From positions 34,303,246 through 34,367,245 of the forward strand of contig OV277866.1 in NCBI GenBank assembly GCA_922989275.2: 64,000 nucleotides of DNA. Direction: 5' to 3'. The notes beneath the pieces are model-generated. The model worked only from the letters and a program-made list of their open reading frames with translations, was not told where the DNA came from and ran no database searches. The stretch is from Gari tellinella (taxonomy: Eukaryota > Mollusca > Bivalvia > Cardiida > Psammobiidae). Both the position numbers and the translations under genes were made by a program. Positions 1-59,956 of this stretch are shown in pieces; the stretch's first letter is position 1, and every line of letters starts with the position of its first letter.

Positions 1-366
1 TTAAAGTCATACAACCTTAAATCCACCATTGTACTTGCAGACAACAATACTGAGGTAGACGACAATAATGCGGTGAAGGGGTACAGTGGAGAATCTGTTA
101 TTCTTTCCCGTTTAAACGCAAACGTACGCAAACGCAAAACACTCAAACGTAGAAAAGAACAACTTTTTGACAATTCTGATAATTCATTTTTATCTTGGTG
201 GCAAACAGTTTGGAGCCTGATCAGACGCCGGGTTACCCGGCGTCTGATCTGGCTCCAAACCGTTTGTAAAAGAAAAAATAGTTTTAGCGTAAACGCGTTT
301 ATCGGGAAAGAATAACAGATTCTCCACTGTAAACCTCTTCCGAATAATGTGATCATGAAAGGGTTA
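1..366. repeat. TTAA-type hairpin MITE (family G), left end outside window, split by family A MITE
   Basis: Bases 1-81 and 332-366 together match the right half of the intact family G copy at 33778-34023: CATACAACCTTAAATC, then CTTGCAGACAACAATACTGA, then GACGACAATAATGCGG and GAAGGGGTAA, then CTTCCGAATAAT and a final AAAGGGTTAA. The family A element at 82-331 sits in the middle. The intact copy reads GGGGTAAATATCTCCC at the matching point, so the flanking TA is the duplicated target. Confidence 0.75.
82..331. mobile_element. Family A MITE, full length (about 250 bp)
   Basis: This is the first full copy of the commonest element in the window. Ends are TACAGTGGAGAATCTGTTAT and its complement. 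Subterminal parts are CCCGTTTAAACGCAAACG on one side and GCGTAAACGCGTTTATYGGG on the other. The centre is a near-perfect hairpin, AACAGTTTGGAGCCTGATCA through CCGGGTTACCCGG to GATCTGGCTCCAAAC. No transposase is encoded, so it is non-autonomous. The TA target and CAGT ends are compatible with the Tc1/mariner-pogo group, which is inference. Short open frames in it are by-products of the palindrome. Confidence 0.9.
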
Positions 367-386
367 ATACTCCATGCTTTTTTCAG

Positions 387-571
387 AGTTTTACACTGGA
401 GATGAGTCTAGGAACTTTGTGAAGGAGATACAGGCGATGAAGAACCTCGGTCATCATCCCTACATTCTCAGCATCATTGGTTGCTGTTTAACCGGGCCCA
501 AGTTTTGTCTTGTCCTGGACTTCTGTGCCTTAGGTGATCTCAGGAACTACCTCAGAAAATACAGGGAAAAG
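387..571 (+). CDS. RTK exon: kinase N-lobe (C-helix to hinge), partial gene
   Basis: First visible exon of a receptor tyrosine kinase, a membrane receptor whose cytoplasmic domain phosphorylates tyrosines. It follows acceptor TGCTTTTTTCAG, starts with two bases of a split codon, and ends in phase 0 at donor AAG|GTAAAT. The product includes FVKEIQAMKNLGHHPYIL, with the C-helix Glu, then the SIIGCC strand and the hinge LVLDFCALGDLRNYLRKYRE. This is typical of FGFR/VEGFR/RET-like kinases. The glycine loop and the VAIK lysine must lie upstream of the window. The 3' intron of at least 13 kb is full of MITEs. The exact RTK subfamily cannot be fixed from this part. Confidence 0.85.
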
Positions 572-1275
572 GTAAATACTACAATGGAGAAAACGGTATT
601 CCTTATCACTTTCTTCCCTGAAACCTCAAATGGACAATTCTAGTTTTCAATTTAGTATAGTCCATTTTTACTTTATAGGGTTGAACTTTACAATATATGT
701 CAAAATAACAAACAGTGTAGACCCTGATCAGATGGCTCCTTATGGACATGTGTACTCCTAACAGGTGCGTGACTAGGGTTCAACGAGTTAAAGTTTAAAC
801 AAAAATAGAATCAAATGCATTACACTTAATGTTGAACATTACATCTGACTGAATATATTTACGGTTCATTTGTGTCTGGGTGGCGAACATTTTTAAGCCT
901 GATCAGACGCCGGGTTTACCGGCGTCTGGTCTTGCTTCAAGCTGTTTGCTTTGAAAAATAATCATTTAGCACAAACGCGTTTATTTGCTATAAAATAAAT
1001 AAGGAAATATGGTGATGTCAAACTGTCTTTACTCTATTCAGGAAGATTTTAATTCTTCACCTAAAACGGAATGAGATGGAAACATAATGCAACATGTGCA
1101 AATAAAACAATATAAAAGTAAAAGGACTGTTTAAATAAAGTCTGAGTAAACCAATCATCCCACTCCTGCTTAGCAAAAACACAAACAGATTGAAATCGAA
1201 AGGCTATTACCGGAAAGAGACACAAAGAAATGACGAACATACGTCCATGTGTACGCAGAAAGAAAAGCACGGATG
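572..1275. other. RTK intron with decayed hairpin pieces
   Basis: No coding exon is recognised. At 712-775 there is a remnant reading CAAACAGTGTAGACCCTGAT. At 850-990 there is a worn half of a family A element with its hairpin (CTGATCAGACGCCGGGTTTA) and the ACAAACGCGTTTATTTG end. The remainder up to 1275 is AT-rich and featureless to me. Confidence 0.5.
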
Positions 1276-1525
1276 TACAGTGGGGAAAACGTTATTCTTT
1301 CCCGTTTAAACGCAAACGTACGCAAACGCATTGCAATAAAACGTAGACAATTACATCTCATTGACAATCCTGACCTTTTATTTTAATCTGAGAGGCAAAC
1401 AGTTTGGAGCCTGATCAGACGCCGGGTAACCCGGCGTCTGATCTGGCTCCAAACCTTTTGCAGTGGAAATAAACGTTTTAGCGTAAACGCGTTTATTGGG
1501 AAAGAATAACACATTCTCCACTGTA
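1276..1525. mobile_element. Family A MITE, full length
   Basis: Ends TACAGTGGGGAAAACGTTAT and ACACATTCTCCACTGTA. The central hairpin GAGCCTGATCAGACGCCGGG / CCCGGCGTCTGATCTGGCTC is intact. It lies in an RTK intron. The left half has several substitutions against the copy at 82-331. Confidence 0.88.
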
Positions 1526-1725
1526 TGTGTTACCATGCATTTTCTCCTCTTTAAAGTTTTCGAGACACCTGCGACTGAACGTTACTACATGTATTTCCAG
1601 CCATAGATAGACTATCACGGGTTTTGCTGATTCTATATAACAAAGCATATTTTTATCAGACAATAGATAACGTTTGGTAAAGGAAATGCTGCAACCGCTC
1701 AACTGTTTGGCCGCTAACCTTTAAA

Positions 1726-1822
1726 GGCTTAATTTATGAGCCTGCTAAGCACTGCTTTACAGTAGATCTTATTCGGCTTAATTAATGAGCCTACTAAGCA
1801 CTGCTTTACAGTAGATCTAATT
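1726..1822. repeat. Two-copy tandem duplication, unit about 48 bp
   Basis: The unit GGCTTAATTTATGAGCCTGC...CTTTACAGTAGATCTTATTC is followed directly by GGCTTAATTAATGAGCCTAC...CTTTACAGTAGATCTAATTC. The units differ at only a few bases. It lies in an intron and no function is evident. Confidence 0.8.
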
Positions 1823-2336
1823 CATTGCAGGAGAGTGTTTCATGTATATACGAGTAACCTGAATAACCTTATTACCGTGACAGTATCCTTTACAGTGGCA
1901 GAATATCTAAAGGTTCTAAGCAACTGTTTAAGTTCAAACTTTATACGATCTCTGACGTTTGCGGCACTTAGATTTTTTTAAAGAAACAATTGTCTTAGTC
2001 AACTTGTGAATATAATATTTGTTGTAAAACATGAAACACCATACCTCGCGTACTCTTATTGATTGATTTATGAATGTGCAACCGTCATTGTGCACATTTT
2101 CAGTTAACACTCCTCTTTCGTTTGAGGTTTCTTGGATCCTTAATAATCATTGCTTCTCCACTACATGTATTCATATTCTTTTCCTAGCCATTATTATAGA
2201 GATTTGTCGCCAGACCCTGTTTCACTTTTATTCACACATTATTTTTGCTCCCTTTTTGCTAGACTCTATTACAAGAATTATGAGGGCACAAAGCAATGCC
2301 GAACAGCTGAAAAGCGGAACACGTCGAGAAAAAACA
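1823..2336. other. Intronic sequence, no feature seen
   Basis: AT-rich. A longer open frame starts near 2070 but runs straight through the MITE at 2337-2579 and has no recognisable domain, so it is not called as a gene. Confidence 0.4.
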
Positions 2337-2579
2337 GGGGCCCGTTTCATAAAACTTTGTACGACAAATTTTGTCGTAAGTCAGATTATAAAAGTATCAA
2401 TTTCTTTTTATTTCTTCATCTTATCCTGTCTTGTGATATCTTTTTGGAATCGTCTTGAAAAGACGATTCCAAAAAGATGTCACAAGACAGGATTAGATAG
2501 GGAAATCAGAAATTAAATGTATTTTTAATATTAGACTTACGATCGTTGTTGTCGTAAGATGTTTTATGAAACGGCCCCC
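2337..2579. mobile_element. GGGGCCCGTTT foldback MITE
   Basis: Ends GGGGCCCGTTTCATAAAAC and GTTTTATGAAACGGCCCCC are inverse. The next layer is ACGACAA...GTCGTAAGTC against GACTTACGAT..GTCGTAAG. The centre is a tight hairpin, CCTGTCTTGTGATATCTTTT ... AAAAGATGTCACAAGACAGG (2427-2492). A relative with the same GGGCCCGTTTTA(C)TAAAC ends lies at 12532-12736. Confidence 0.85.
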
Positions 2580-3867
2580 GGCTTGTAGCTAGTAAAAACT
2601 CTTTAACAGCAGATTTTACGCTTGCGTAAAACCTCGCTTGTTTTGTATTTATATGAGAAACAAAATCAAACCTTGAATGTTATACATACGGCCATAAACT
2701 ATTGCGATGCGTTTATTGCTTAATAAAATGTGTATTCGTATTTGCTGTTACCATTAGCGCTTTAATGGTCGATCTCAACTACGACGTATTGCAGCTTGCT
2801 GCAATTTCTCGGACGTTCTTTCATTCGCTGCTCAATCACATATCAAATCGCCATTAAGCAGTTCGAATCTTGATATACCGCCTAGTGACTCTGATCTTTT
2901 CTAGATCCGAACTGTAAGCAGTTTTCTTTAAAAAACTAAATGGCTTATTGAAGGTTTGGTGAATGCCTGAATGTGTCACTTGAGGACAGTAAACTACAGT
3001 GGAATTTTTAATTTCTTAGCAGCTTCCACAAATATATATACAGCGAAGCTCGCTTATAACAAAATTGTATATAATGAAATATTGGATATAATAAAACAAC
3101 TTTTATTTCCCGTAAATGAATTTTCCGTGGATATGCATTTAGCTCCCGTGGTATTATCATTCACACCATTTATGATTATTGAAAAAATGATACATCGTAC
3201 AAATGTCGTTCTGGGTGGAGACGGGGATAACAAGTGGAACGAATACAGCATCCCGCATCGTCTGAGCATTACAATTATACGAAATCAACGTACCGTAGTA
3301 ATGTATGATCCATGGAAAGGAATGGAGGTGTTCCGTCAAGTAATTTGTTCGACGTATATTTCCCTCTTCGCACCGTATTTCAACCTTCACAATTAAACTG
3401 AAACTGAATAATTTGATTAAACGCCCTTTTTACACATTGTATAATCAATGGCGTTGTACAATGAATGATAACATTATAATGAACAATCAATTATAGGGCA
3501 ATACTTAATTTTGACAAGTTGGAAGGATATATAGTATAAATATAAGAGATGAAATGACTTTGTATTTAGTGTCCATGTTTAACAAATGTAACAAACGAAA
3601 TTAATCGTCAGTTTTCACATGAATCGATTGCGTGGTTTATATATTTACCGATGATATCTCGTTGTTCATTTCTCATGAAATGCGAACAATGTTTTAATTC
3701 ATAAGTAGTTTATTGTAAACAGATTCATTTCCATTCTCAAGGGAAAGGGAACGGACCACAAGAACGTGCCCTCTTCTACAAACATATAACACAAAATGTC
3801 CATACAATGGCGTAAACAAGTATAAACACCTGAAATACATATAATGTTATGCATCTAAACGTAATGT

Positions 3868-3869
<2 letters not shown>
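2580..3869. other. RTK intron, mostly unassigned
   Basis: Around 3040-3115 the text GCTCGCTTATAACAAAATTG..ATAATGAAATATTGGATATA resembles the inner end of pogo/Tigger-like elements (low confidence). Nothing else recognisable. Open frames of 60-140 codons here overlap on both strands and lack domains. Confidence 0.35.
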
Positions 3870-3906
<37 letters not shown>

Positions 3907-3958
3907 GAGAGAGAGAGAAGAAGGGAAGAGGAGATATATAGAGAGAGAGAAAGAGACG
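3870..3958. repeat. (GA)n microsatellite
   Basis: An almost pure GA run with a few interruptions (GGGG, GAAGAAGGGAAGAGG, ATATAT). Confidence 0.95.
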
Positions 3959-4413
3959 CATTTAACTTTCAACACGTAAGGCGTTCAGTGGACGTAAAAT
4001 ATACAAAATTCCAAATAAAACAATACTAGGTGAATATTTGTAATAGTTACTGTACATAATAACAGATGATAATAAGTAAGAAACTAAGATTTTTAAGTTA
4101 GACACGTATTTCAATATATGTATTTTGTGGAGACTTTTCTTACCTTTATTTTTATCCTGTCGTTATACTGGCTGCTTTTGGAAAAGTCGTTTTCAAAAGT
4201 AGTTACAATGCGTAAGTTTGTATTCTGTGTTGAACAGTTTTAATCGAGATCAGGCTCAAATAATATCAGTGACGACGAGAACCGACATACAATGTATTTT
4301 TACTTCAGTCCAGTCATAAATTAAAGTAAGTTTGCTCTCTTAAACCCCTTACCTTTAAGACAGAACAAACCTCTACATGTACCCTCTCTTTCTTTTTCTT
4401 TCTTCTTTTTATG

Positions 4414-5035: not shown

Positions 5036-5100
5036 TTGAACGCGCAGTCTTGTTATCCTTAAAATATATCAAATAGTTTTTGAGTTTCACTATAAACGTT

Positions 5101-6025: not shown

Positions 6026-6132
6026 CATGCCGTTCCCTTCTAACATCACGTATCAGCAGAATGTCGAAACGTTCGGATTCTGAGTAAACACATAATCTTA
6101 TATGGATTGAAATTGTTTGCAAAAGTTATCAT

Positions 6133-10500: not shown

Positions 10501-10723
10501 TGCAGTTCATATCTTCTTCGATTGTGCAACCTCTTCATCTTTAACTTGAGCTGTGGCATGACAAAAAACGCCTTTGGATGCATGAGGGTGTCCAACAGTG
10601 CAGATAAATACCAGTTTTGAGGCGGTCGCTTGCATTGATATACGGTGTCTGTAATGTAATAAGTCAGTGTTTTTCTCATGACCCTGCTCAATTTTATTTG
10701 AAGTCAAAATACAATGTGTATGT

Positions 10724-10973
10724 TACAGTGGAGAATCTGTTATTCTTTCCCAATAAACGCGTTTACGCTAAAACTATTATTTGCAGTGCAAATAGTTTGG
10801 AGCCAGATCAGACGCCGGGTAACCCGGCGTCTGATCAGGCTCCAAACTGTTTGCCACCAAGATAAACATGAATTATCAGAATTGTCCAATAGTTGTTCTT
10901 TTCTACGTTTTAGTGCTTTGCGTTTGCGTACGTTTGCGTTTAAACGGGAAAGAATAACAGATTCTCCACTGTA
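10724..10973. mobile_element. Family A MITE, full length, reverse orientation
   Basis: TACAGTGGAGAATCTGTTAT, CCAATAAACGCGTTTACGC, the hairpin GAGCCAGATCAGACGCCGGG / CCCGGCGTCTGATCAGGCTC, then CGTACGTTTGCGTTTAAACG and GATTCTCCACTGTA. Nearly identical to copies at 36665 and 43874, which suggests recent spread. Confidence 0.92.
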
Positions 10974-10984
10974 TATTATTTCTA

Positions 10985-12513: not shown

Positions 12514-12922
12514 TTAACCCATTTGTGCCCAGGGGCCCGTTTTACTAAACTACTTACGCAAAATGTTTGCGTAAGTCAAAATTTTAAATTTTAATTTATA
12601 TTTTTTAGTATCACTTGCTACAAACAGCAAATAGTCAGATCAGAGGTCTGGCTATTTGCTGTTTGCAAACGTTTATGATCGAAAAATGTTGACTTACGCA
12701 AAAAATGTGCGCAAGTTGTTTAGTAAAACGGGCCCCAGGATACCATATATGGGATATAGGCAAACAGTGTAATAGCAGCGTCTGATCAGAGTATACACTG
12801 TTTGCTGAAAGAAATTTCAATATAAAACAAAATAAAAAGGAACATTTAGACTAGGTATCCCTTATAATAAAAAGAATAGTCCTATAAACATGGAAGAATC
12901 CACAGTGCGCAAAATGGGTTAA
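12514..12922. mobile_element. Family W MITE (TTAA-flanked) split by a GGGCCC MITE
   Basis: TTAACCCATTTGTGCCCA, then the insertion, then GGATACCATATATGGGATAT, a hairpin AAACAGTGTAATAGCAGCGT.. with half of its left arm lost, then TTTCAATATAAAACAAAATA, GGAAGAATCCACAGTGCGCA and AAATGGGTTAA. The outer TTAA is present on both sides. Confidence 0.82.
12532..12736. mobile_element. GGGGCCCGTTTTA MITE nested in family W
   Basis: Ends GGGGCCCGTTTTACTAAAC and GTTTAGTAAAACGGGCCCC are exact inverses. The inner layer is TTACGCAAAATGTTTGCGTAAGTC / GACTTACGCAAAAAATGTGCGCAA, and the inner hairpin is AACAGCAAATAGTCAGATC / GGTCTGGCTATTTGCTGTT. Confidence 0.88.
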
Positions 12923-18670: not shown

Positions 18671-19988
18671 GTAAGTAATAACCTCTTTTTGTTATCTGCA
18701 AAAGTATACATGTACATTAGAGATGCCGACATTCTTGTCAGTTTAAACGCAAACGAAACTGAATCAGATAGAATGGAAACAAATGCGTTTTTAGAAAAAA
18801 AATCTAACGACCTTGTTTAATCTGAATGGCAAATATTAAAAATTTACCCGGCGTCTGCTCTGGTTCTAAACTGTTTCCAGGGGGCATTATTGATTTAGCA
18901 TAAACCAATTACATGTATTACATATTCTCCACTGCACATGTCTTCTAATTTTTATCAAAAATGTTCGAATGGGCAATTCGTGTTTCGGTCCAAATAACCG
19001 CATTGAGCTGCAGTGTCGAAAACGTGTTTTTTCCCGCTAAACACGTGTGCGCTACAGCTATTATTTCGTTTGCAAACAGTTTGGAGCCATATCAAACATC
19101 GGTTAACCTGGCATCTGATCTGGCCTCAAGCTGTTTTGCCAATCAGAATAATATAAATAGTCAGAATTGCCACAGTATTGTCATTCCATTGAAGACAGCT
19201 ACAACCATTGCCAACAGGTTTGAGCTAGACTTAAAAAAATGTACCACATAATAAACACGTTCAAAACCCTGTTATTTTTTGTATGTTATAACAGTGCATT
19301 TCGTACTGTTTAAACAGTAAATAACAACATCGTTTCGATGTAGATCAAATCAAGATTATTCGGCGTCTGATCTGGTTTCAGACTGTTTGCAATGTTACAA
19401 ACCCGGTTTTGATTATAAAGAATGTCATCCCTGTTGTATATAGTGTACACAACCTTTTAATTGATGCATGCTCTTAAATAAGTACGTTGCTAGTTACAAA
19501 ACTTCACTATATTTTATACTATCCAATGTCAGGAAAAGCTATATGTTTCAAGTTTTATACTGTCATAGAGAAAATTTTAAATTTGAAAAAGAACACCAAA
19601 AAAAACAGATTAAACGGATTTGACTTAAGTGCATTAGCGCAAAAATGACAAAATGTTACGTTCATTGCAATCAGTTCGCAGCAAGATCAGACTCCAAACT
19701 GTTTGCCTCACTAAACTAAACCCTTTTCATGATCAAATTATTCGGGAGAATTTTACACCTTTACCGCTTTATGGTCATCTGCATCATTATTGTTGTCTTC
19801 AAGACACGTTTCGAAGTTAAATTTAAGGTTGTTTGACATAATGGTAATCAATAGAAGTGTCAAATAGTGTGGGTCTTGATCAGACGCCGTGTTATGCGGC
19901 GTCTACTCCGGACCCAAACTGTTTGCAAACGCGCTTTAAAGCGTAATTGGAAGTGAAAGGGTTAAAAATATAACAAACATATATGATA
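18671..19988. repeat. RTK intron filled with decayed MITEs
   Basis: 18716-18937: worn family A (GTTTAAACGCAAACGAAACT ... CATATTCTCCACTGCA). 19012-19150: second worn piece (AACGTGTTTTTTCCCGCTAA, GAGCCATATCAAACATCGG). 19310-19400: half hairpin (TTATTCGGCGTCTGATCTGG). 19744-19972: a family G element in reverse, with GTCTTCAAGACACGTTTCGA, TCAGACGCCGTGTTATGCGG and GGAAGTGAAAGGGTTAA. Confidence 0.6.
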
Positions 19989-20197
19989 TACAGTAAAACC
20001 TCTCTATTACGACCACTAAAGATAGTTAAATGTTGGGTGTTCAAGGCAGTTGACTATTTAAAGAAAGGTGACAGTGAAACAGAAAGCTCCTTTAGGAGCT
20101 TTCTGTTTCGCTGTCATCTTGCTTTAAGTTTGTGCCTGTCTTTTATACAATCAATTAGCATTCGTTTTAGTGGTCATAATAGAGGGGTTTTACTGTA
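19989..20197. mobile_element. Family P pogo-like MITE, full length
   Basis: TACAGTAAAACCTCTCTATT-ACGACCACT and AGTGGTCATAATAGAGGGGT-TTTACTGTA are near-exact inverse ends on TA. Centre hairpin: AGAAAGGTGACAGTGAAACA GAAAGCTCC-TTTA-GGAGCTTTCTGTTTCGCTGT. It ends about 75 bases before the next RTK exon. Confidence 0.92.
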
Positions 20198-20272
20198 TAT
20201 AAAAAAAACTGTCAGTCTATACATTGTATACTCAACGTTTGCAATAATGAGACAACTTTATATTGTTTTCAG

Positions 20273-20410
20273 CTGGTCATTCGGAATTGTCCTGTGGGAG
20301 ATAGTGACACTAGGGGGTTCGCCGTACCCTAGTATTCCTCTCAAGGACCTTTATGGTTTGTTGAACGAGGGGTATAGAATGGAGAAACCGGAAAACTGTA
20401 GTAAACAAGT
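20273..20410 (+). CDS. RTK exon: C-lobe (WSFGIVLWE)
   Basis: Acceptor TATTGTTTTCAG, donor CAAGT|GTAAGT. Begins with the third base of a Val codon; then [40 protein letters not shown] and NCSKQ plus two bases of Val. DVWSFG (kinase subdomain IX) and the [14 protein letters not shown] block are characteristic of FGFR/VEGFR/RET-type receptors. Both exon edges are phase 2, so skipping this exon alone would keep frame but remove a core helix. Confidence 0.93.
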
Positions 20411-21139
20411 GTAAGTATAATATTGACAAGAGATTCGGTCAAAATTTAATTTTGGTGAAAATTTTCGCAGTTTGTCATTCTTGCCAAATGACCGTGCGAA
20501 CCGCACAATGCTTGAGTCCCCGCGTAATATGCATATAATTTTTCACAAGTGAATTCAAATTGAACAATGAAACCGCTCCAATTTTAATTATTAGTCGGCA
20601 GGTTGTCTCTTTTTTAAAGGGTATTATCTACAATTTCTGCATTTCGTTTGCAGTTTAGTTTCGTTTCAGCCTTTATCCCATACGTGTAGCTTGTTTCCAG
20701 CAATGGAGACATATACTTGCTTTAAGCAGACTGGATATTAAACGGAATGTGCCGTAAGACGCATTCTGTCAAACTTTCAGTCTTCTTTAAGCGCCATCTG
20801 CTAGGATATATAGTTTTCGTTACGTACTCATATAGCTGTTTTGAGGGAAACAATTTTCTTCAATGAAGGTATAACTTAATATAAAGAAGTAATAAGCGTA
20901 TCAAAGGAGTAATGTGTTCACTGCCTTACCCCGAGCACAATATGTTTTTGCAAACAGTTTTGGTCCTGATCAGACGCCGCGTCAAGCGGCGTCTAATCAG
21001 GATTCAAATTGTTTGACACTCATTTCAATATTTCTTCAGTCAAAATAGGACTACTTAAAATTTAATAAATAAAAGCAGACGACAATTGTTAAAATTGATG
21101 ACGTCACGGCATTGGATGGGTTTTCCTGTTTAATTGCAG
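20411..21139. repeat. RTK intron with family S and family G pieces
   Basis: 20700-20835: worn family S (CTTTAAGCAGACTGGATATT, GGAATGTGCCGTAAGACGCA). 20920-21100: family G copy with AACAGTTTTGGTCCTGATCA-GACGCCGCGTCAAGCGGCGT, CACTCATTTCAATATTTCTT and AAAGCAGACGACAATTG. Confidence 0.6.
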
Positions 21140-22821: not shown

Positions 22822-23039
22822 TACAGTGGAGAATCTGTTATTTTTTCCCGTTTAAACGCAAACGTACGCAAACGCAAAGCACTAAAACGTAGAAAAGAAC
22901 AACTTTTGGACAATTCTGATAATTCATATTTATCTTGGTAGCAAACAGTTTGGAGCTTGGCTCCAAACTGTTTGCATTGGAAATTACAGTTTTAGCGTAA
23001 ACGCGTTTATTGGGAAAGAATAACTTTTTCTTCACTGTA
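22822..23039. mobile_element. Family A MITE with hairpin collapsed
   Basis: Ends TACAGTGGAGAATCTGTTAT and TTTTTCTTCACTGTA are intact, but the hairpin is reduced to GTTTGGAGCTTGGCTCCAAAC: the whole TGATCAGACGCCGGG core is deleted symmetrically. Such loss is expected from replication slippage at a hairpin (inference). Confidence 0.88.
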
Positions 23040-30540: not shown

Positions 30541-30769
30541 TTAACCAATTTGTGCCCACGATCCCATATATGGGACATAGGCAAACAATGTAGACTATGA
30601 TCAGACGCCGCATTATGCGGCGACTGATCAGAGTCTACACTGTTTGTTGATATGAATTTCAAAATAAAACAAAACGAAAATGAAAATTTTGACTAGGCAT
30701 CCCTTTGATAAAAACTGGTCTAATCCAATATATAAACATGGAAGAATCCACTGTGCGTAAATGGGTTAA
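30541..30769. mobile_element. Family W TTAA-type MITE, full length
   Basis: TTAACCAATTTGTGCCCACG, ATCCCATATATGGGACATAG, hairpin ACAATGTAGACTATGATCAG-ACGCCGCATTATGCGGCG, GAAAATTTTGACTAGGCATC, ATGGAAGAATCCACTGTGCG, AAATGGGTTAA. Confidence 0.88.
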
Positions 30770-31168
30770 TTGACTTAGGAAGTGACGTTACATGTAGCAC
30801 AGTACAAACACGTTTGTACAGGAACATATTTCTTCTGTGTTAAAATAAAATACGGATCTTCAGTTTTTACCTGCCTTATATCAGCGAACGTGAGACCAAT
30901 TCTTATGTCACAAGCGGGTCCAAGAAAATAAAGAGCTTGAGTTGAGTCTGATATTGTTCTCAAGCATTTGATTGGTCAGATTTGAGACGTTGCACAAATC
31001 AGACCATTCATATGCTTCCGAGCGATCTGCCCTAATTTGGCCTATCAAAGGCGTAAGAACGATCTTAGAATGAACTCAAATGTTTTATAAACTTGAGAGT
31101 CAAACGCTAACTGTTTGAAACGTACGTACGTCCTTAGCGGCAAAATCGCAGAGATCGAAGAAGGTATA
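30770..31168. other. No feature assigned; weak internal inverted similarity
   Basis: CTTGAGTTGAGTCTGATA and CTCAAGCATTTGATTGGTC sit near ATGAACTCAAATGTT..AACTTGAG, a weak inverted arrangement. No end motif is recognised. Confidence 0.35.
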
Positions 31169-33605: not shown

Positions 33606-34080
33606 TAGACAACCACCCGGGTAACACTTGACAATGAACTTATAATCGTGGAATTAGGGCATGCATACATGTGTTTTAAAGCGATCTTGCGAGGCAACTT
33701 GCATAACATATCACTCATACTTAAAAGCAGGCCCGGCAAAGTATGTTTATGTAATTAATACCTGCTCTGTTAGTTGGTTAACCCTTTCGGCGCCGTAGTC
33801 GCATAAAGTAGACGTTGCAAAGAGTTCGGATCCAGATTAGACGCCGCGCAACGCGGCGTCTGATCAGGATCCAAACTGTTTGATACTTTTATCGATATTT
33901 CGTAAGTCATAAAACCTTAAATCTAACTTTGAAACGTTCTTGCAGAGAACAGTACTAAAGCAGACGACAATAAAGCGGCGAAGGGGTAAATATCTCCCGA
34001 ATAATTTGGCGCCGAAAGGGTAATGATTTTTTATACTGAAACACCACTCTTTCCTGATGACACGTTGTTTTACTTTTCAG
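33606..34080. repeat. Zinc-finger intron with a family G MITE
   Basis: 33778-34023 is an intact family G element: TTAACCCTTTCGGCGCCGTA, hairpin GAGTTCGGATCCAGATTAGA-CGCCGCGCAACGCGGCGTCT, AAACCTTAAATCTAACTTTG, AGCAGACGACAATAAAGCGG, and TTGGCGCCGAAAGGGTAA. It serves as the reference copy for family G. The intron ends at TTTTACTTTTCAG. Confidence 0.85.
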
Positions 34081-40232: not shown

Positions 40233-40490
40233 CAGGGCTGCCATAAGTTGACATGAAAAATCCTAAGATTCCCAAAATTGCATTTTTCAAGTGCGATTTT
40301 ACGAATCGTACCTTTACCCCATAGCCTTTTTCTTGTTTTGTTGACATGCGACTACTTAAAGCAGGTTGTAAGTAGAGCAGAATGCGCCTTAGGGCACATT
40401 CTGCTTTACTTTCAGCCTGCTTTAAGCTACCACGTACTGGGGAAAAATCCGGAGATTTAGGAAAAATCCGGAGAAATGGCAGCCCTGTTA
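40233..40490. mobile_element. AGGGCTGCCAT-ended element carrying a family S hairpin
   Basis: The left AGGGCTGCCATAAGTTGACA and the right GGAGAAATGGCAGCCCTG have inverse ends. Inside, 40315-40440 is a family S hairpin (AAAGCAGGTTGTAAGTAGAG-CAGAATGCGCC). ATCCGGAGATTTAGGAAAA repeats near the right end. Ends with CAGGGCTG-type sequence may indicate a hAT-like element (weak inference). Confidence 0.65.
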
Positions 40491-43403: not shown

Positions 43404-43483
43404 TCAAACGGTATCTATTACTTATAATACACTTGAAACATACATACCGAAAGTTCATAAATGCGTTGTCTGCTTTGCTTATA

Positions 43484-43842
43484 TAGCGTTCCCTCCTTAC
43501 AACGACCCGCCCAACAACGACTCCCTCCTTACAACGACCATTACCGCTGTTCCGTAAACAGGACAATTGTGTCCAACCTGTTCACGAATGCAATGTCGTC
43601 TGCGTAAAATTGTCTCCTGCTAACTTTCTCAAGGTTACATAATGGACATTTTGACGGTTAAAACTTAATTAGGAGTGACAAACAGCTTGAATCAAGATCA
43701 GACGCCGCGTAACGCGGCGTCTGGTCTTGATTCAAACTGTTTGCAAATGTAAATCAATGTCCCTCTCTATAACGACTCCCTCCGAACAACACACACACTC
43801 TCTGTCTCCAATTGGGTGTCGTTGAAGAGAGGAAACACTGTA
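43484..43842. mobile_element. Family T pogo-like MITE, reverse orientation
   Basis: AGCGTTCCCTCCTTACAACG and GTGTCGTTGAAGAGAGGAAA-CACTGTA, with a complete hairpin ACAGCTTGAATCAAGATCAG-ACGCCGCGTAACGCGGCGTC. A second ACAACGACTCCCTCCTTACA lies near the left end, a partial doubling. Confidence 0.85.
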
Positions 43843-46689: not shown

Positions 46690-47130
46690 AGACTTTTATT
46701 TTAACCCTTTCACTTCCAACAGCGCAAAAACACGACTTTGCAAACATATTGGGGTCTGATCAAACGCCGCGTGACATTCGTATCGATATTACTTCAGTAA
46801 ACAGCCCTTAATACAGTGGAGAAAACGTTATTCTTTCCCGTTTAAACGAAACGAAACGCAAACGCAAAACACTGAAACGTAGAAAAGGACAACTTTGGAC
46901 AATTCTGATAGTTCATGTTTATCTTGGTGGCAAACAGTTTGGAGCCAGATCAGCCGCCGGGTAACCCGGCGTCTGATCTGGCTCCAAACTGTTTGCAGTG
47001 GACATAATAGTTTTAGCGTAAACGCGTTTTGTTGAGAAAGAATAACACATTCTCCACTGTATGTATAAATAGACTGCAGACAATACTTACCAATGCAGAC
47101 GAAATATTTGTGGTAAGAGGGTTAAAGAAG
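46690..47130. mobile_element. Family G MITE split by a family A MITE
   Basis: AACCCTTTCACTTCCAACAG, CATATTGGGGTCTGATCAAA CGCCGCGTGACA, CGATATTACTTCAGTAAACA-GCCCTTAA, then the family A insertion, then TAAATAGACTGCAGACAATA, GTGGTAAGAGGGTTAAAG. The intact family G copy at 49997-50209 reads through without a break. The right arm of the hairpin is missing. Confidence 0.78.
46812..47061. mobile_element. Family A MITE, full length, nested
   Basis: TACAGTGGAGAAAACGTTAT to ACACATTCTCCACTGTA; complete hairpin with one change (CAGCCGCCGGGTAACCCGGC). Confidence 0.92.
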
Positions 47131-48021: not shown

Positions 48022-48273
48022 TTAACCCTTTACCTGATAGCCTATTTCTAGTACTTAAGATAGGTGACTACTTAAAGCAGGTTGAAAGTAAAGCAGAATG
48101 CGCCTTAGGGCGCATTCTGCTTTACTTTCAGCCTGCTTTAAGCTATCATGTGCTATAATAAAGAAAATGTTCCCTATAATACATATTCATTACTGATTAA
48201 ATTGGAACTATTTTCTTCAGCGGATGAATAAATCATATCCGCTAAAAGGCGCTTCTATTGGGTAAAGGGTTAA
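48022..48273. mobile_element. Family S TTAA-type MITE, full length
   Basis: TTAACCCTTTACCTGATAGC, AAAGCAGGTTGAAAGTAAAG-CAGAATGCGCC-TTAG-GGCGCATTCTGCTTTACTTT, GCTAAAAGGCGCTTCTATTG, GGTAAAGGGTTAA. Confidence 0.93.
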
Positions 48274-50209: not shown

Positions 50210-50619
50210 AGCAGACGATAAAACTTGGCACAGATAAATAGTTAACCATTATATTCGAAATGAGACCTGTCTAACAAAATTAATCGCGAATGCAGTGCGC
50301 TTAAAATGTAGAAAGCGCGTCTAACTAGGAACTGGGTTTCCTTTTATAATGCCTATCACGTATCATGTATCCTTTAACCCATTGTCACCTGCCGCTTTGA
50401 ATGGGCATTCCCAGTGTGTGGATATGAACATGTATATGTTTAATGCCAATAAAATTTGAATGGAATTGAACCATATAAGACATTGTTTTTGTTATATATC
50501 AAATTAAGAAACAGTTTAGAGCCTGATCAGTAGGATCCTGTAGGACGTCTCTGATCTGGGTTTACACTGTCTGTATATGACAAGTCAAAGTGTACATTGC
50601 ACAAGTATATTGTCTGTAA
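50210..50619. other. Left flank of the giant foldback
   Basis: Mostly unassigned. 50515-50580, TTTAGAGCCTGATCAGTAGG ATCC..GTCTCTGATCTGGGTTTACACTGTCTG, is a variant hairpin like those at 712 and 59215. The foldback may have inserted next to it. Confidence 0.45.
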
Positions 50620-50639: not shown

Positions 50640-52435
50640 CAATCGACATTTCGACATTCGACCTTTCACAAATGAAAGGTCGAACAGCTGTCGAATTTCG
50701 ACTTTCGACATTTAAGCTTTCACATAATGTAACAAATGTTGCCGATCGAAAATTCAACTTTGCCATAATGTCGAAATATTGTCGAAATTCGACGTTCGAC
50801 ATTCAACATTTTCAAAACACATTACTTTGTCGAACTGATGTCGAATTTCGACGTTCGACACTTATACAAAGTCGGGAAATTGTCGAACTAGGGTCGAAAT
50901 TCGACGTTCGACATTCAACAGTTTAAATATACATTACTTTGTCGAACTGATGTCGAATTTCGACGTTCGACATTTATACAAAGTCGGGAAATTGTCGAAC
51001 TAGGGTCGAATTTCGACGTTCGACAAACTGCAATTAAGGGAAAAAGTCGAAATATTGTCGAAATTCGACGTTCGACATTCAACAGTTTAAATAAACATTA
51101 CTTTGTCGAACTGATGTCGAATGTTGACGTTCGATACTTATACAAAGTCAGGAAATTGTCGAAAAAGGGTCGAATTTCGACGTTCGACAAACTGCAAGTA
51201 AGGGAAAAAGTCGAAATATTGTCGAAATTCGACGTTAGACATTCACCATTTTTAAAACACATTACTTTGTCGAGCGCATGTCGAATTTCGACGTTCGATA
51301 CTTATACAAAGTCGGGAAAATGTCGAACTAGGGTCGAAGTTCGACGTCCGACAAACTGCAAGTGAGGGAAAAGTCGAAATATTGTCGAAATTCGACGTTC
51401 GATATCAAACTGTCTTCAACACATTCCCTCTGTTGAACTTATGTCGAATTTCGACGCTCGACAATTTGCCGGACCCGGGAAAAGTCGAAATATTGTCGAA
51501 ATTCGACGTTCGACATTCAAAATTTCTTAAACACATTACTATGTCGGACTCATGTCGAATTTCGACGTTCGACATGTGGCCGGCCCGGGAATATGTCTAA
51601 ATATTGTCGAATTTCGACATTCGACACTTATCCAAAGTCGACATAAGTTCGAACTAGTGTCGAATTTCGACGTTCGACAAGTGGCTGGCCCGGAAAATGT
51701 CGAAATACTGTCGAATTTCGACATTCGACACTTATTCAAAGTCGGGAGATTGTCGAACTAGGGTCGAAGTTCGACGTTCGACAAATTGCAAGTAAGAGAA
51801 ATAGTCGAAATATTGTCGAAATTCGACGTTCGACATTCAAGATTTCTTAAACACATTCACTCTGTCGAACTAGGGTCGAATTTCGACGTTTGACAATTTG
51901 CCGGACCCGGGAAAAGTCGAAATATTGTCGAAATTCGACATTAGACATTTATCCAAAGTCGACATAAGTTCGGGATAGTGTCGAGTTTCGACGTTCGACA
52001 AGTGGCCGGCCCGGAAAATGTCGAAATACTGTCGAATTTCGACATTCGAGGAAAATTTGTCGGGAAATTGTCGAACTAGGGTCGAATTTCGACGTTCGAC
52101 ATTGTCCTTTTTACCAAAATGTCGAACATTTGACGAAATTCGATGTTCGACTTTCAACACTACTTAAAAACATTCACTATGTCGAACTTGTGTAGAATTT
52201 AGACGTTCAATAATTTGGCGAGCCTAGAAAAAGTCGAAATATTGTCGAAATTCGACATTTGACAATCAACATTTCTTTACCACATTCAATATGTCGAACT
52301 TAATAAATTATGTCGAATTTCTACGTTCGACATTGTCCTTTCACCAAAGTGTCAAACATTAAACAATTCTATAAAGTCGGGAAATGTACAAAAAGTATCA
52401 AATTTCAAATTTCGACAATTTAACGGCAGATAGTG
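50640..52435. repeat. Left arm satellite of the foldback
   Basis: The motif GTCGAAATTCGACGTTCGAC recurs dozens of times, separated by linkers in a loose higher-order order: ATTCAACA..AAACACATTACTTTGTC, then ACTTATACAAAGTCGGGAAA, then ACTGCAAGTAAGGGAAAA. Toward the centre, linkers change to GGCCGGCCCGGGAAA and TTTGCCGGACCCGGG. The inner end is more diverged than the outer end. Confidence 0.9.
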
Positions 52436-55094: not shown

Positions 55095-57292
55095 CTGATT
55101 TCGACAAAATTTCGAAATGTTATGTTTGATAAATTTCGAATGTCGAATTTCTACAATAGTTTGACTTTTCCCGGTCCGGCAAATTGTCGAACGTCGAAAT
55201 TCGACACAAGTTCGACTTAGTAAATATGTTATAGAAATTATGAATGTCGAACGTTGAATTTCGACAATATTTCGAATTTTACCTGCCCGGCAAATTGTCG
55301 AACGTCGAAATTAGACATATGCTCTACATAGTGAATGTGTTTCAGAAATATTGACAGTCGAAAGTCGAATTACAATAATGTGTCGTCTTTTGCAGCCCGG
55401 CAAGTTGTCGAAAGTCGAATTTCGACAAATTTTCGACATTTTGGTAAAAGCACAATGTCGAACGTCGAAATTCGACAATATTTCGACTATTTCCCAGTTT
55501 GGCAATTTTTCAAATGTCGAAAGTCGAAATAAAGTCGACACTTCACCAGCTTTGTTGAAATGTCGAATGTCGAAATTCGACAATGTTTCGATTTTTTCAT
55601 GGCCCGGCAAATTGTCAAACGTCGAAATTCTACAAAGTGAATGTGTTTAAGATACGTCAAATTTCCGTCATTTTGGTAAAAGGACAATATCGAATGTCGA
55701 AATTTGACAATATTTCAACTATTTCACTGTCTGGCAATTTGTCGAATGTCGAATTTCGACATAAATTCGACACTTTATCGGCTTTGTTGAAATGTCGAAT
55801 GTCAAAATTCGACAATATTTTGATTTTTTCCTGGCCCGGCAAATTGTCGAACGTCGAAATTCGACATAAATTCGACATAGTGAATGCGTTTAAGATATGT
55901 TGAAAGTCGAACATCGAATTTGGACAAATGTTCGACATTTTGGTAAAAGGACAATGTCGAACGTCGAAATTCGACAATAATTCGACTATAGCCCTGTCTT
56001 GTAATTTGTCGAATGCCGAATTTCGACATAAATTCGACACTTTACTGGCTTTGTTGAAATGTCGAATGTCGAAATTCGACAATATTTCGACTTTTCCCTG
56101 CCAGGCCACTTGTCGAACGTCGAAAGTAGACATTAGTTCGACATAATGAATGTGTTTAAGAATTGTTGAATGTCGAACGTCGAATTTCGACAATATTTCG
56201 ACTTTTCCAGGTCCAGCAAATTGTCGAACATCGAAATTCGACATAAGTTCAATAGTGTTTAAGAAATCTTGAATGTCGAACGTCGAATTCCGACAATATT
56301 TGGACTATTTCCCTTACTTGCAATTTGTCGAACGTCGAAATTCGACCCTAGTTTGACAATTTCCCGACTTTGTATAAGTGTCGAACGTCGAAATTCGACA
56401 TGAGTTCGACATGAGTTCGACAAAGTAATGTGTTTAAGAAGTTTTGAATGTCGAACGTCGAAAATCGACATGAGTTCGACATAGTAATGTGTTTAAGAAA
56501 TTTTGAATGTCGAACGTTGAAAATCAACAATATTTCGACTTTTCCCGGGTCCGGCAAATTGTCGAGCGTCGAAATACGACATAATTTCAACAGAGGGAAT
56601 GTGTTGAAGAAATTTTGAATATCGAACGTCGAATTTCGACAATATTTCGACTTTTCCCTTACTTGCAGTTTGTCGAACGTCGAAATTCGACCCTAGTTCG
56701 ACAATTTCCCCACTTTGTATAAGTGTCGAACGTCGAAATTCGACATAAGCTCGACAAAGTAATGTGTTTTAAAAATGGTGAATGTCGAACGTCGAATTTA
56801 GACAGTATTTCGACTTTTTCCCTTAGTTGCAGTTTGTCGAACGTCGAAATTCGACCCTAGTTCGACAATTTCCCGACTTTGTATAAGTGTCGAACGTCGA
56901 AATTCGACATCAGTTCGACAAAGTAATGTGTATTGAAACTGTTGAATGTCGAACGTCGAATTTCGACAATATTACGACTTTTCCCCTTACTTGCAGTTTG
57001 TCGAACGTCGAATTTCGACCCTAGTTCGACAATTTCCCGACTTTGTATAAGTGTCGAACGTCGAAATTCGACATCAGTTCGACAAAGTAATGTGTTTTAA
57101 AAATGTTGAATGTCGAACGTCGAATTTCGACAATATTTCGACATTATGGCAAAGCTGAATTGTCGATCGGCAAAATTTGTTACATTATGTGAAAGCTTAA
57201 ATGTCGAAAGTCGAAATTCTACAGCTGTTCGACCTTTCATTTGTGAAAGGTCGAATGTCGAATTGTCGAATGTCGTGCAAACTTCACACACC
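55095..57292. repeat. Right arm satellite of the foldback
   Basis: Inverse of the left arm: GTCGAACGTCGAAATTCGAC with linkers TAATGTGTTTAAGAAATTTT, GACAATTTCCCGACTTTGTA-TAAGTGTC, CCCTTACTTGCAGTTTG. It is longer than the left arm and contains linkers (TTTTGGTAAAAGGACAATGT, CACTTTATCGGCTTTGTTGA) that are rarer on the left. Confidence 0.9.
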
Positions 57293-57828
57293 TCTGTCTG
57301 TACATGATGCATACACACATCGCCAGTTTTCAATAGAATGATGTGCGCAAGGACGGTATTTTGAATATTGTAAAACCGATCTTTCCCGTCCGAGACCAGT
57401 GTGTTTTCTGTTTAGACCCTTAGTTACCGATCAGGAATGGTCAGAAATCTAGGTCAATGACCACTTTTTGAACTGTAGCACTCTCATTGGCCAATTAGAC
57501 TAGGTTTCTGTTGTTGTTTTCTTACATTTATCTTGGAGTTTAATCCTTTGAAAACAATGAGATACTGTCTAAAGTATTACTGTGTCATCATTTCTGAATT
57601 TAGCATAATTCACGAAACAAATTATACATGTTTGATTTAATGAATAATGAAAAGTCTAAACTGCGACGGATTATCTTTTTAAAAATATCTCTAGTCGAGT
57701 CTGAATATGTAACAAACCGGGAACAATTTGTTCTCTCTCGTTAATACTAACTGAAACGCAACGCCAACACAATAATAAGAAGAAACAGACAACCTCTTCC
57801 TTGATTGTATGCAGCTTTCGTTTTTAAT
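57293..57828. other. Right flank of the foldback, no feature assigned
   Basis: Nothing recognised except a faint family A trace at 57730-57800 (CTGAAACGCAACGCCAACAC). Confidence 0.35.
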
Positions 57829-58180
57829 TACAGCGTTCCCTCTCCTCAACGATATCAAATGGGAGACTAAAATTGTGTGCGTTGTTTGGAGGGAGTCGTT
57901 ATAGAGAGCAAAATTATCTTACTTTTGTAACAGCTTGAATCCAGATCAGACGCCGCGTTTCGCAGGGGATTCAAGCTGTTTGTCACTCGTTATTAGGTTT
58001 CTCTTCTGTCAAAATGTCCATTATGTAACTTTGAGAAAAACAACAGACGACAATTATAAGCAGACAATATAGCAGACGTGAAAAGGTTGGACATACTTGT
58101 TATGTTTGGGAAACAACGCCAAGTGTTGTTGTTAGGAGAGAGTCGTCGTTGGGAGAACCGTTGTAGGGAGTGAACACTGC
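57829..58180. mobile_element. Family T pogo-like MITE
   Basis: TACAGCGTTCCCTCTCCTCA ACGATATC, CAAATGGGAGACTAAAA, hairpin CTTGAATCCAGATCAGACGC-CGCGTTTCGCAGGGGATTCA, CGACAATTATAAGCAGACAA, GTTGTAGGGAGTGAACACTG. Confidence 0.82.
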
Positions 58181-58256
58181 ATCAATAATCAAAAGGGTAT
58201 GTTAACATGTAGCCAATTCGCCAGTGACGAGTATAGTCGTCGCAAAGGTTCAATGT

Positions 58257-58468
58257 GTAAACCCTTTCAATGCCGAAGTCGCATAAGTCGATATTGCAAA
58301 CAGTTTACTTCCTGATTAGACGCAACGTAACTGTTTGACAGTCGTATCTAACTTTCTAACAAAAAGTCATACAACCTTAACGATCTTGCAGAAAACAATA
58401 TCAAAAGAGACGACAGCACGGCGGGTAGGAGAAACTCTTAACAATTAATATGGTGCCGAATGGGTTAA
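58257..58468. mobile_element. Family G TTAA-type MITE, hairpin shortened
   Basis: TAAACCCTTTCAATGCCGAA GTCGCATAAG, AACAGTTTACTTCCTGATTA GACGCAACG, AAAAGTCATACAACCTTAAC, AATATGGTGCCGAATGGGTT-AA. Its ends match the reference copy at 33778. Confidence 0.8.
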
Positions 58469-59706
58469 ACTGGTCGACATATTATGGTTCGAAAGAACCT
58501 TTGTATGCAACATAGCCGTGTTCTAATAATAGCTCTTGTAATGCCGAATTATCATATACTTCAAATACAGTGATCCCTCTCTAAAACGACAACCAATGGG
58601 AGACAAACAATACACGTCTGTTGTTCGCAATAGGGTTATTAAAGGGAGGGAACATTAAGAAACAGCTTGAATCTAGGTCAGACGTCTGATCTGGATTCAA
58701 GCTTTTATATTTGGTCATTATATTTTTTCTGTCAAAATGTCCACTTATTCGAGCGTATGTAACTTTGAGAAAAAACAGCAGATGACAGTTTTAAGTAGGC
58801 GGCTTTGCAGTCTCATCTGGATCCAAACTGTTTGCACAAGTAAGTCAGTTGCGCTTAGCATGATAAGGGTTAGGTCGAGTTGCTATCGTTATCTACTCAG
58901 AATGTCAGCTGACTACATCTACGTGCAGTAAAACCCTTGTGTCCAATGCCCAAAAGTCGTCTTAGATGCAGAAGAAAATAATACAAAAGACATTTAAAAG
59001 ACATTCTGTGTTATTTTTCTCCTGTTGAAAGCAGGCTTTAGAAAGCTCAGTTCTTCTTAAATGAGTTTGTGCACAGTTGACTTAAGAAGACCTTGAACTC
59101 CGTTTCATAATAACTCATTCTCCCCTGAAACTTTTACTAGACAATTCCAATTTAAACATACATCTAGACGATTTTCGACTATTTAGGGTTGATTAAACAA
59201 TATATTTCAAAATGACAAACAGTGTAGACCCTGATCAGGAGTCCTCTGATCTGGGTTTACACTGTTTGCATAGGACAAATGTAATCCTCACAGGTATACT
59301 GTTTGCAAATGACGAGTATACTCGTCGCTAGGGTTGAATGTGTTTATTAAAAAAACGACCTGAATTTGATTATTTTGCAGTCGCAGGCGGACAATGCATA
59401 GTGAAACAATGGTCCACAAATACCTGGACAAATATTTAACCCTTTTGCAAACAACTTATCTTCAGATAAAACTTTGCAATTCCATGTATAATTCAAATTG
59501 TTTACATTTTAACTGAACAATTATTAAAACGAACGTCAAACAGTATGGGTTCTTAAAAACACCTGATCAAAACTCGCTATTATTATTAGTAGTAGTATTA
59601 TTATCGTTCTGCAAATTTGAATTTTTGTCGACTTTGAGGGTAAACAGGGTTAAAGAAGAATTCACCGGAATCCCAAATGAAATTAGGTTAATCGGACGAC
59701 CTACTG
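58469..59706. repeat. Family T piece and variant hairpin
   Basis: 58566-58800: TACAGTGATCCCTCTCTAAA ACGAC, AATGGGAGACAAACA, worn hairpin TTGAATCTAGGTCAGACGTC. The right end is lost in a mosaic with CATCTGGATCCAAACTGTTT. 59215-59290: CAAACAGTGTAGACCCTGAT-CAGGAG..CTGATCTGGGTTTACACTGT. 59575-59605: TATTAT/AGTAGT microsatellite. Confidence 0.55.
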
Positions 59707-59956
59707 TACAGTGGAGAATCTGTGATTATTTCCCGTTTAAACGCAAACGTACGCAAACGCAAAGCACTAAAACGTAGAAAAGTACAACTTTTGGACCATT
59801 CTGATAATTCATGTTTATCTTGGTGGCAAACAGTTTGGAGCCTGATCAGACGCCGGTTTACCCGGCGTCTGATCTGGCTCCAAACTATTTGCACTGCAAT
59901 TAATAGTTTTAGCGTAAACGCGTTTATTGGGAAAGAATAACAGATTCTCCACTGTA
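59707..59956. mobile_element. Family A MITE, full length
   Basis: TACAGTGGAGAATCTGTGAT to CAGATTCTCCACTGTA; complete hairpin GAGCCTGATCAGACGCCGGT-TTACCCGGCGTCTGATC. Confidence 0.92.

Follow-up and report, generated by a model that had tools for sequence, protein, structure and literature searches.

The same near-palindromic core of 66-68 bp is present inside MITE families of Gari tellinella that have different ends and different target sites. In the stretch of 64,000 nucleotides analyzed here (the window), 64 copies were found, and a further 145 copies were identified in a 200-kb sample of the genome (1.6 Gb), which by extrapolation corresponds to about 1.16 million copies in all; five sets of shuffled controls contained none. 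An initial annotation had noted the hairpin in families A, G, W, and T. This observation was confirmed and is larger than stated: the four named cores are present, with edges moved by a few bases (A, 10788-10854; G, 33817-33883; W, 30581-30647; T, 43678-43744). On balance, the hairpin is probably a module that has been kept by selection during amplification and was occasionally joined to new ends.

The core and the elements that carry it

A single 67-nt query gave 67 matches in the window at E<10, of which 49 were at E<1e-3, and none in 20 first-order Markov shuffles of the window. The arms of the core are 33-34 bp long and contain two better-kept boxes, GCAAACAG and GAT-AGA; on the whole, conservation at 1-8 and at 19-25 (22 excepted) exceeds that of neighboring positions. 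The consensus cores of A, G, T, and W share 49-61 of 67 positions in pairwise comparison, and core identity among A, V, G, and T is 0.69-0.91, with V pairs barely exceeding shuffles. Look-ups of the core letters in prokaryote, viral, and literature sources gave no match.

Hosts of the core with differing ends comprise eight TTAA groups, two TA families (A and T), and motif-level relatives (H). They have the features of MITEs, being short, non-coding, homogeneous in length, present in many copies, and bounded by terminal inverted repeats. In family A, 37 copies carry the two exact end words, and 23 of these measure 246 nt between the TAs; by strict words, TA borders each end in 36 among 67 two-sided copies. 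As judged by eye, TTAA adjoins copies of G, W, V, D, E, F, and G2. We take A and T to be pogo-like, based on their TA target and CAGT ends. The elements of the window are as follows.

81..332, minus strand: family A MITE (TA target, CAGTGGAGAA ends); core at 201-267 (family profile 1.6e-84, core 4.5e-16)
10723..10974, plus strand: family A MITE; core at 10788-10854 (family profile 7.3e-86, core 4.5e-17)
12529..12739, plus strand: element H (CCAGGGGCCCG ends) inside a W element; central palindrome at 12620-12686
22822..23039, minus strand: family A MITE, hairpin without the central 32 nt
30541..30774, plus strand: family W MITE (TTAACC-ATTTGTG ends); core at 30581-30647 (family profile 2.1e-79)
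33777..33998, plus strand: family G MITE (TTAACCCTTTCGGCGCC start; right TTAA mutated); core at 33817-33883 (family profile 2.2e-61)
43471..43830, minus strand: family T MITE (CAGTG.. and CCTCTCT ends at TA) with G-type flank; core at 43678-43744 (T profile 3.5e-117)
46700..47130, plus strand: family G element, into which a family A element (46811-47061) has inserted at TA
59215..59269, plus strand: V-type core with shortened center; left flank matches 611-706
59705..59956, minus strand: family A MITE; core at 59826-59892 (family profile 6.1e-84, core 1.4e-15)

The likeness of the H palindrome to the core is at box level only, and a fuller copy lies at L016:2479-2549. By eye, the A element at 81..332 lies within the right part of a G element, for which a G profile match was obtained at 4-84.

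Shared flanks and the probable joining of new ends

The statement of the initial annotation that centers are shared and ends are not holds for A, for W, and for G and T taken together. Between G and T, however, a long internal flank is shared as well, a feature that the initial annotation did not mention. These two families have the core and about 100 bp of one flank in common, and the G profile also matches the T element at 43589-43759 (2.8e-30), whereas their ends differ; the ends therefore appear to have been swapped around a shared center. Among flank pairs from different families, only the right flanks of G and T stood clear of shuffles (0/500), the next best pair, A left and G left, being equaled by 24/500. 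In a comparison of A, V, G, and T, all flank pairs were within the shuffle range except the right flanks of G and T. For left flanks anchored at the core edge, the corresponding values are 3/300 for G/T, 13/300 for A/T, and 16/300 for G/W. The right flank of A, anchored in the same way, resembles that of G and T little past its first 5 nt, CACTC. With CACTC included, 10/300 (A/G) and 5/300 (A/T) shuffles reached the observed likeness, as compared to 179/300 and 156/300 without it, and kinship of these flanks past CACTC is not significant. In the genome-wide clustering of cores by flank, which used fixed queries, the G-type left-flank group was partly joined through neighboring A elements, and family G was for this reason defined by its right flank.

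The simplest reading of a comparable case in corals (see below) would be a single ancestral MITE of which the ends alone diverged, with no joining of parts. Traces of common descent can be cited for it, since the eight TTAA groups start with CCC or CTC, a flank motif, RCAGAYRAY, is common to G, G2, T, E, F, and part of D (right flank of 16/17 G and 8/12 T copies, but of 0/84 A, 0/19 V, and 0/5 W copies), and CACTC is often found at the start of the right flank (G, T, D, K, and older copies of A). Such an origin is nevertheless unlikely in view of the insertion of A and T at TA instead of TTAA, their unlike terminal repeats, the absence of clear sharing of A flanks past CACTC, and the mixed flanks of elements with a second hairpin, P2. 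The latter hairpin behaves like the core and is represented in the window by three loci.

20058..20127, plus strand: P2b hairpin in a TA family (CAGTAAAACCTCTCTA ends)
40355..40426, plus strand: P2 hairpin in an element with CAGGGCTGCCA ends, one flank resembling a TTAA family and the other different
48071..48142, plus strand: P2 hairpin in its own TTAA family (TTAACCCTTTACC start)

Six P2 elements carry the flank of the TTAA family on one side of the hairpin and a different flank on the other. Between the first hairpin, P1, and P2, only V showed some likeness to P2b (33 versus 23 for the best half-arm shuffle, a control that is not like-for-like). Together with T, which combines a G-type center and flank with TA-type ends, the six P2 elements support the occasional joining of new ends to the module. 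The junctions lie beside the hairpin, in T (from a G-type element), in A, and in the P2 elements with CAGGGCTGCC ends, and the joining step may have been a template switch made while a gap at the hairpin was being repaired.

As for the source of mobility, TTAACCCTTTCGGCGCC is found at both ends of the autonomous piggyBac loci L031, L033, and L034, matching the G element that starts at 33777; the remaining G copies diverge after CCCTTTC. By this identity of ends, family G is classified as a putative piggyBac-mobilized MITE. Derivation of the core from this autonomous partner was rejected, as no core lies within the three loci. The core matches near L033 and L034 fall outside their ends, and L029/L030 contain a separate core-bearing TTAA MITE.

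Inheritance, loss, and paired changes of the core

Of 132 cores tested, 126 are of the type that their flank family predicts; D cores are mostly nearest to G types (1/5 right). Because core type follows flank family, frequent conversion between families finds no support. The initial annotation had also considered an independently mobile cassette, to be recognized as a core standing alone with its own target duplication. Neither flank belongs to a repeated group in 37 of the 209 cores of the window and the 200-kb sample, and among the nine strongest of these (E<1e-7), seven resemble members or relatives of known groups. The two others, L010:6395 and window position 50507, could be placed in no known element and are in favor of a cassette inserting into MITEs. 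So are the outer 13-mers of the A hairpin, which match in direct orientation at 10 of 13 positions, can mimic a target duplication, and are represented by one copy in core-less A elements. However, other families that do have the hairpin show little or no such repetition (W 6, V 4, and H 4 of 13), and direct repeats of at least 6 nt at the edges of the 37 ungrouped cores occurred once as compared to 0.39 times at random places (maximum 3), which is no excess.

Core-less A copies gave 668 exact-word matches across the genome; core-bearing A copies number 14 in 200 kb, or about 110,000 by extrapolation. Losses of 54 nt between the outer repeats of the hairpin are recurrent, and among 100 listed of the 668 matches, 78 share an identical 18-nt interval. 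Every form that a switch between the two 13-mers should produce occurs. These copies fit slippage between the outer repeats and not empty target sites; no true empty site was found, and the other core-less cases seen were imprecise deletions. The distances of 39 core-less A copies are 0.030-0.042, as compared to 0.043 for 17 core-bearing copies. Core-less copies do not cluster clearly by form (18.2 versus 14.9±3.0; 70/500), and their separation from core-bearing copies is mild (38.3 versus 32.2±4.6; 39/500). With inheritance congruent with flank family and core-less copies in the forms that 13-mer switching predicts, a cassette moving on its own is very improbable.

Recurrent loss is also relevant to the idea of a hotspot without benefit, in which the hairpin stalls forks or breaks, repair swaps its surroundings, and the hairpin persists for that reason only. 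Besides the 54-nt losses, junctions near the hairpin edges would agree with it, as would deletions of at least 5 nt in 58 A copies, of which 10 (one being a duplicate listing) are in the core and 4 in the next 67 nt, a difference that is weak alone. We regard a hotspot as rather improbable, given that swapping is rare (126/132 congruent) and that a passive site predicts neither complementary changes nor better-kept boxes.

Such complementary changes are evident between families. The consensus cores of A, G, T, and W differ in the symmetric pairs 9-59, 10-58, 12-56, 13-55, 15-53, 16-52, 31-37, and 32-36; pair 18-50 also differs for G/T, where A itself is mismatched, and the remaining differences are at the center (34) and the edge (67). 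Two-sided change in 53 distinct cores amounted to 95 cells, which count related sequences, versus 35.3±4.6 in shuffles (0/500) and 25-43 in slid controls, whereas a second measure was within the shuffles (16 double-change pairs versus 12.9±2.0; 46/500).

Inserted copies, in turn, decay freely. In 26 young A copies, private substitutions per base were 0.0145 in the core, 0.0139 and 0.0106 in the inner flanks, and 0.0058-0.0075 in the terminal repeats. The pair changes in young A copies were one-sided in 33 cases and compensated in none, and ongoing arm-to-arm copying was rejected as the source of the symmetry. In A copies retrieved with a single flank as the only query, core mismatch was 0.053 versus 0.098 (core lower in 52/59), and in a further one-flank comparison it was 0.043 versus 0.120 (core lower in 52/56), with the same direction in T, G, and V. 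The ratio of core to left-flank divergence is 0.46-0.75, or 0.41-0.73 without CpG sites, with no clean age trend. This slower divergence of the core is modest and may in part reflect old subfamily structure, and more bases are deleted from the core than from the compared flank (172 versus 39 in A by the right flank).

Recognition of the hairpin by a host factor or RNA pathway, as a box bound by a protein or as a transcribed stem-loop, might aid spread or the survival of insertions. The better-kept positions and the stem, very stable as RNA (about -61 kcal/mol), are consistent with this, but the core shows no constraint in young inserted copies, and the window has no Rfam family at the gathering threshold, by which a known RNA family was also rejected as the identity of the core. 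Such recognition is thus improbable. Taken together, the paired changes and the unhindered decay of copies once inserted suggest selection acting on elements as they spread, and not host use. The preferred reading is therefore that of a module kept by selection during amplification: the core would be the structural module of a large MITE clan, folding as a hairpin or cruciform, in which arm stretches outside the boxes change in complementary pairs. It is inherited with its family, shows no sign of solo movement, and would be kept because elements holding the hairpin multiply. The proposal of the initial annotation that the hairpin rather than the ends is the unit kept, crossing families with different target sites, is upheld, and among the options offered there, a signal that would aid spread fits best.

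Precedents and significance

A kept central domain with differing other parts is also a feature of SINEs, and SINEs with highly conserved domains exchange heads and tails. Unlike the Gari module, SINEs are RNA-copied, and to our knowledge no hairpin has been described in their highly conserved domains. Such domains are named in a report (PMC6887750) in which the MER6 MITE has a SINE V domain between mariner ends, likewise a domain known from another kind of element; it is of SINE origin, whereas in Gari the module is a palindrome that has DNA MITEs as both donors and recipients. Stowaway and mPing contain internal sequences that raise or lower transposition and thus, as may be the case in Gari, affect movement, but in the review concerned they do not appear as a module common to unrelated families (PMC12595863).

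Within the literature collection searched for a shared internal MITE hairpin, only one paper came near, that on the CMITEs of the coral Acropora, which are the closest precedent (PMC2872659). CMITEs, with about 1600 copies estimated, have differing TTAA terminal repeats and an internal region of about 75 bases that is more conserved than the ends; in Gari, too, families resemble each other more in the internal region than at the ends. For the coral elements a role in transposition was proposed, and the origin and role of the internal region were left open there. The single matched coral autonomous piggyBac resembles CMITEs at the ends and weakly beside them. All CMITEs use TTAA, whereas the Gari families A and T use TA, and, compared by description and not by letters, the Gari module is a palindrome with paired changes and far more numerous; 'hairpin', 'palindrom', and 'stem' are absent from the main text of the coral paper (PMC2872659).

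In Gari, several successful families share a central hairpin and not the ends bound by transposase, across at least two target-site classes. As a tentative generalization, the hairpin could be a transferable amplification module, acting as structured DNA or RNA independently of transposase class and raising the copy gain of MITEs. If so, any MITE whose ends enclose the hairpin would expand, as P1 and P2 would have done across TTAA and TA, and hairpin modules would play for DNA transposons the part that conserved central domains play for SINEs. Many genomes, including those of bivalves, are rich in MITEs, and the finding bears on why a few non-coding MITE families explode, a question that it makes directly testable.

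Abundance of the core and its carrier families

A 67-nt query built from the core of the initial annotation had 67 matches at E<10 and 49 at E<1e-3 in the window, and none in 20 Markov-shuffled windows. In the 1.5976-Gb assembly, where the window occupies positions 34303246-34367245 of contig C11, the arm word TGATCAGACGCCG had 138,844 forward and 138,716 reverse occurrences, and the reversed word had none. Six fixed queries (E<1e-2) identified 64 cores in the window and 145 in a genome sample of 20 regions of 10 kb, taken at set places on contigs C1 to C10, and no core in five shuffles of the same 264 kb. The density of 7.25 cores per 10 kb (SD 5.3) in the sampled regions extrapolates to approximately 1.16 million genomic copies (bootstrap over regions, 0.80 to 1.53 million), or 0.79 million when restricted to E<1e-6.

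This core is shared by MITE families with differing ends. The 140-nt outward flanks of 209 cores were clustered without use of the core itself, and the resulting groups mostly paired one to one: both sides were grouped in 67 elements of family A, 13 of V, 12 of G, 11 of T, and 4 of W, and D, E, F, G2, Ga, Gb, and V2 are smaller flank-defined sets. The G/T-type flank groups 2 and 3 each had several partner groups, group 2, comprising short G-type left flanks, being held together partly by adjacent A elements; two cores carried a group 0 flank on both sides, and 37 of the 209 had neither flank in any group. A family was assigned to 158 of the 209 cores, some via one flank and K and H by hand. 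Inspection of the ends by eye places G, G2, W, V, D, E, F, and the L029/L030 MITE at TTAA targets, each starting with CCC or CTC, and A and T at TA targets, with CAGTG at their ends; no ends were found for K. There were 86 matches to PF13843, and the autonomous piggyBac elements that share their ends with the G copy at 33777 include those at loci L031, L033, and L034, which contain no core. Element H, of which two copies were seen, has only the boxes and the layout in common with the core, the stretches between the boxes being different.

Element H and other sequence in the window
12529-12739: element H, CCTGGGGCCCG/CGGGCCCCAGG-type ends
Locus L016, about 2380-2650: second copy of H, with the same type of ends; central palindrome at 2479, 32/35 paired
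2332-2584: near-palindrome of ~250 bp, CAGGGGCCCG ends resembling H; core boxes absent (by eye)
50769-52300 and 55132-57148: two tandem arrays of TGTCGAA..TTCGACA units (BLAST), ~3 kb apart and inverted relative to each other
62129-63097 (-): open frame, presumably Penelope-like; itself without a Pfam hit at 1e-3, its relatives bearing PF00078 (reverse transcriptase) and PF26215 domains; the top named relative is a protein of the bivalve Dreissena polymorpha (62%), outscored by four unnamed proteins and one "hypothetical protein"; the source organism is thus probably an invertebrate and perhaps a bivalve

Co-inheritance with flanks and joining to new ends

Core and flanks are inherited together. 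For 132 cores (E<1e-4, families of at least 3 members), the nearest core belonged to the same flank family in 126 cases (A 75/75, G 17/17, T 11/11, W 4/4, V 16/17, Ga 2/3, D 1/5), so that exchange of the core between families is old or rare. Frequent conversion between elements, one option of the initial annotation, is thus not supported; that exchange did happen emerges from two lines of evidence.

The first is the G/T pair. These families differ in their ends (TTAA and TA, respectively), but their right flanks are alike far above shuffles (z 10; 0/500), and on the left similarity is 0.80 over the initial 15 nt (shuffled, 0.50) and 0.40 over the 15 nt that follow (shuffled, 0.56). The shared flank contains RCAGAYRAY in 16/17 G, 8/12 T, and 2/2 each of E, F, and G2, as well as in 2/3 Ga, 2/3 Gb, and 2/5 D elements, and in none of the A (0/84), V (0/19), W (0/5), or K (0/2) elements, the background rate being 47/1,520 tiles. 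Family A has the core in common with G and T, and little past CACTC.

The second line comes from P2, a different hairpin of 70 to 72 bp with 88 copies at E<1e-3 and no match in five shuffled sets. Both flanks were from a TTAA family in 37 P2 elements, and from a TA family with CAGTAAAACC ends in 8 elements with P2b cores. Six mixed elements are one-sided chimaeras, in which a TTAA-family flank faces a CAGGGCTGCC-ended flank across the hairpin, the changeover lying ~7 to 18 nt outside the hairpin (by eye).

P2 and adjoining sequence in the window
15262, 20058, 26262, 39509, 40355, 48071, 48570, 60042, and others: P2, 17 copies at E<1e-3
20274-20411 (+): exon-like tyrosine kinase stretch adjoining a P2b MITE (PF07714, 1.9e-12; match covering residues 101-146 of frame 19974-20411)

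Paired divergence, decay, and loss of the core

The arms of the core have diverged in pairs. Consensus differences among A, G, T, and W fall at symmetric positions: A and G differ at 15-53 and 31-37, A and T additionally at 9-59 and 13-55, A and W at 10-58, 12-56, 15-53, 16-52, 31-37, and 32-36, and G and T additionally at 18-50, a mismatched pair in A; the unpaired differences are at centre 34 and edge 67. For covariation, 67 cores were picked, 20 random A copies plus full-length cores of other families (E<1e-5), of which 55 were aligned, with the 12 V cores excluded for length and no F core included. Paired cells amounted to 85.8% (shuffled, 80.5±0.4), cells altered on both sides to 95 (35.3±4.6 shuffled, 25 to 43 in slid controls), and the covariation score to 0.199 (shuffled, 0.109±0.006); double changes occurred in 16 pairs, which is within the shuffle range (46/500). 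Overall, conservation is higher across positions 1-8 and 19-25 (22 excepted) and lower across 9-18 and 26-32; in D and E both members of the pair 22-46 are altered together. Three cores (L019:1486, L028:4979, and L027:8207) carry additional inverted pieces centrally, as template switching within the hairpin would leave.

Inserted copies decay freely, since 26 young A copies had 0.0145 private substitutions per core base, near the 0.0139 and 0.0106 of the inner flanks (terminal repeats, 0.0058 to 0.0075), and altered pairs were one-sided in 33 cases and compensated in none; the arms thus show no visible mutual correction. Over A pairs binned by right flank only, core divergence was 0.46 to 0.75 times that of the inner left flank (0.41 to 0.73 without CpG sites). 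Among copies recovered by one flank alone, six comparisons had the same direction (copies with the less altered core: A 52/59 and 52/56, T 9/12, G 15/20, V 11/11 and 16/21), where the demand for an alignable second flank creates a bias against this result and deleted bases, more numerous in the core, do not count as changes. Old subfamily structure may explain part of the slower core divergence.

Family A also loses the core. Its outer 13-mers GCAAACAGTTTGG and CCAAACTGTTTGC are direct repeats (10/13 positions), and 668 exact-word matches genome-wide had 0 to 30 nt where the core would be (reversed-word control, 0); in the sampled 200 kb the same words flank a core in 14 cases and lack one in none. 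Among 100 listed places of the 668, 78 had exactly 18 nt, in forms that vary by the switch point between both 13-mers. Forty places were picked by form on C1 and C2, most of them bounded by TA on either side and lying in dissimilar sequence contexts; 39 copies were usable. Distances within three core-less forms were 0.0385, 0.0421, and 0.0295, on a par with the 0.0428 among 17 core-bearing copies; there was no clear clustering of the 39 by form (18.2 versus 14.9±3.0; 70/500), and the separation of core-bearing from core-less copies was 38.3 versus 32.2±4.6 (39/500). No amplified core-less lineage was seen among the copies examined. Judged by sequence, the core-less copies fit recurrent slippage products between the 13-mers rather than an empty target site, which speaks against the captured mobile cassette that the initial annotation had envisaged.

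Known systems and a candidate mechanism

MITEs take a considerable genome share in a survey of bivalves (PMC10294476). The outline seen here is like that of the coral CMITEs, in which families that differ in their TTAA ends have an internal region of ~75 bases in common, largely dissimilar to the corresponding autonomous piggyBac; the main text of that work does not mention a hairpin (PMC2872659). The mariner MITE MER6, which contains a SINE domain, is a parallel across element classes (PMC6887750), and in rice elements the MITE interior can increase or decrease transposition, according to a review (PMC12595863). Against these precedents, the new features are the co-varying palindrome, its span across TTAA and TA families, and the scale.

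Gap repair following excision may lead to a template switch at a hairpin, by which the core, or the core plus one flank, would be joined to other ends and give rise to a new family. What is read may be a DNA cruciform, an RNA stem, or a bound protein, and the hairpin would be a module that a multiplying element needs or gains from.
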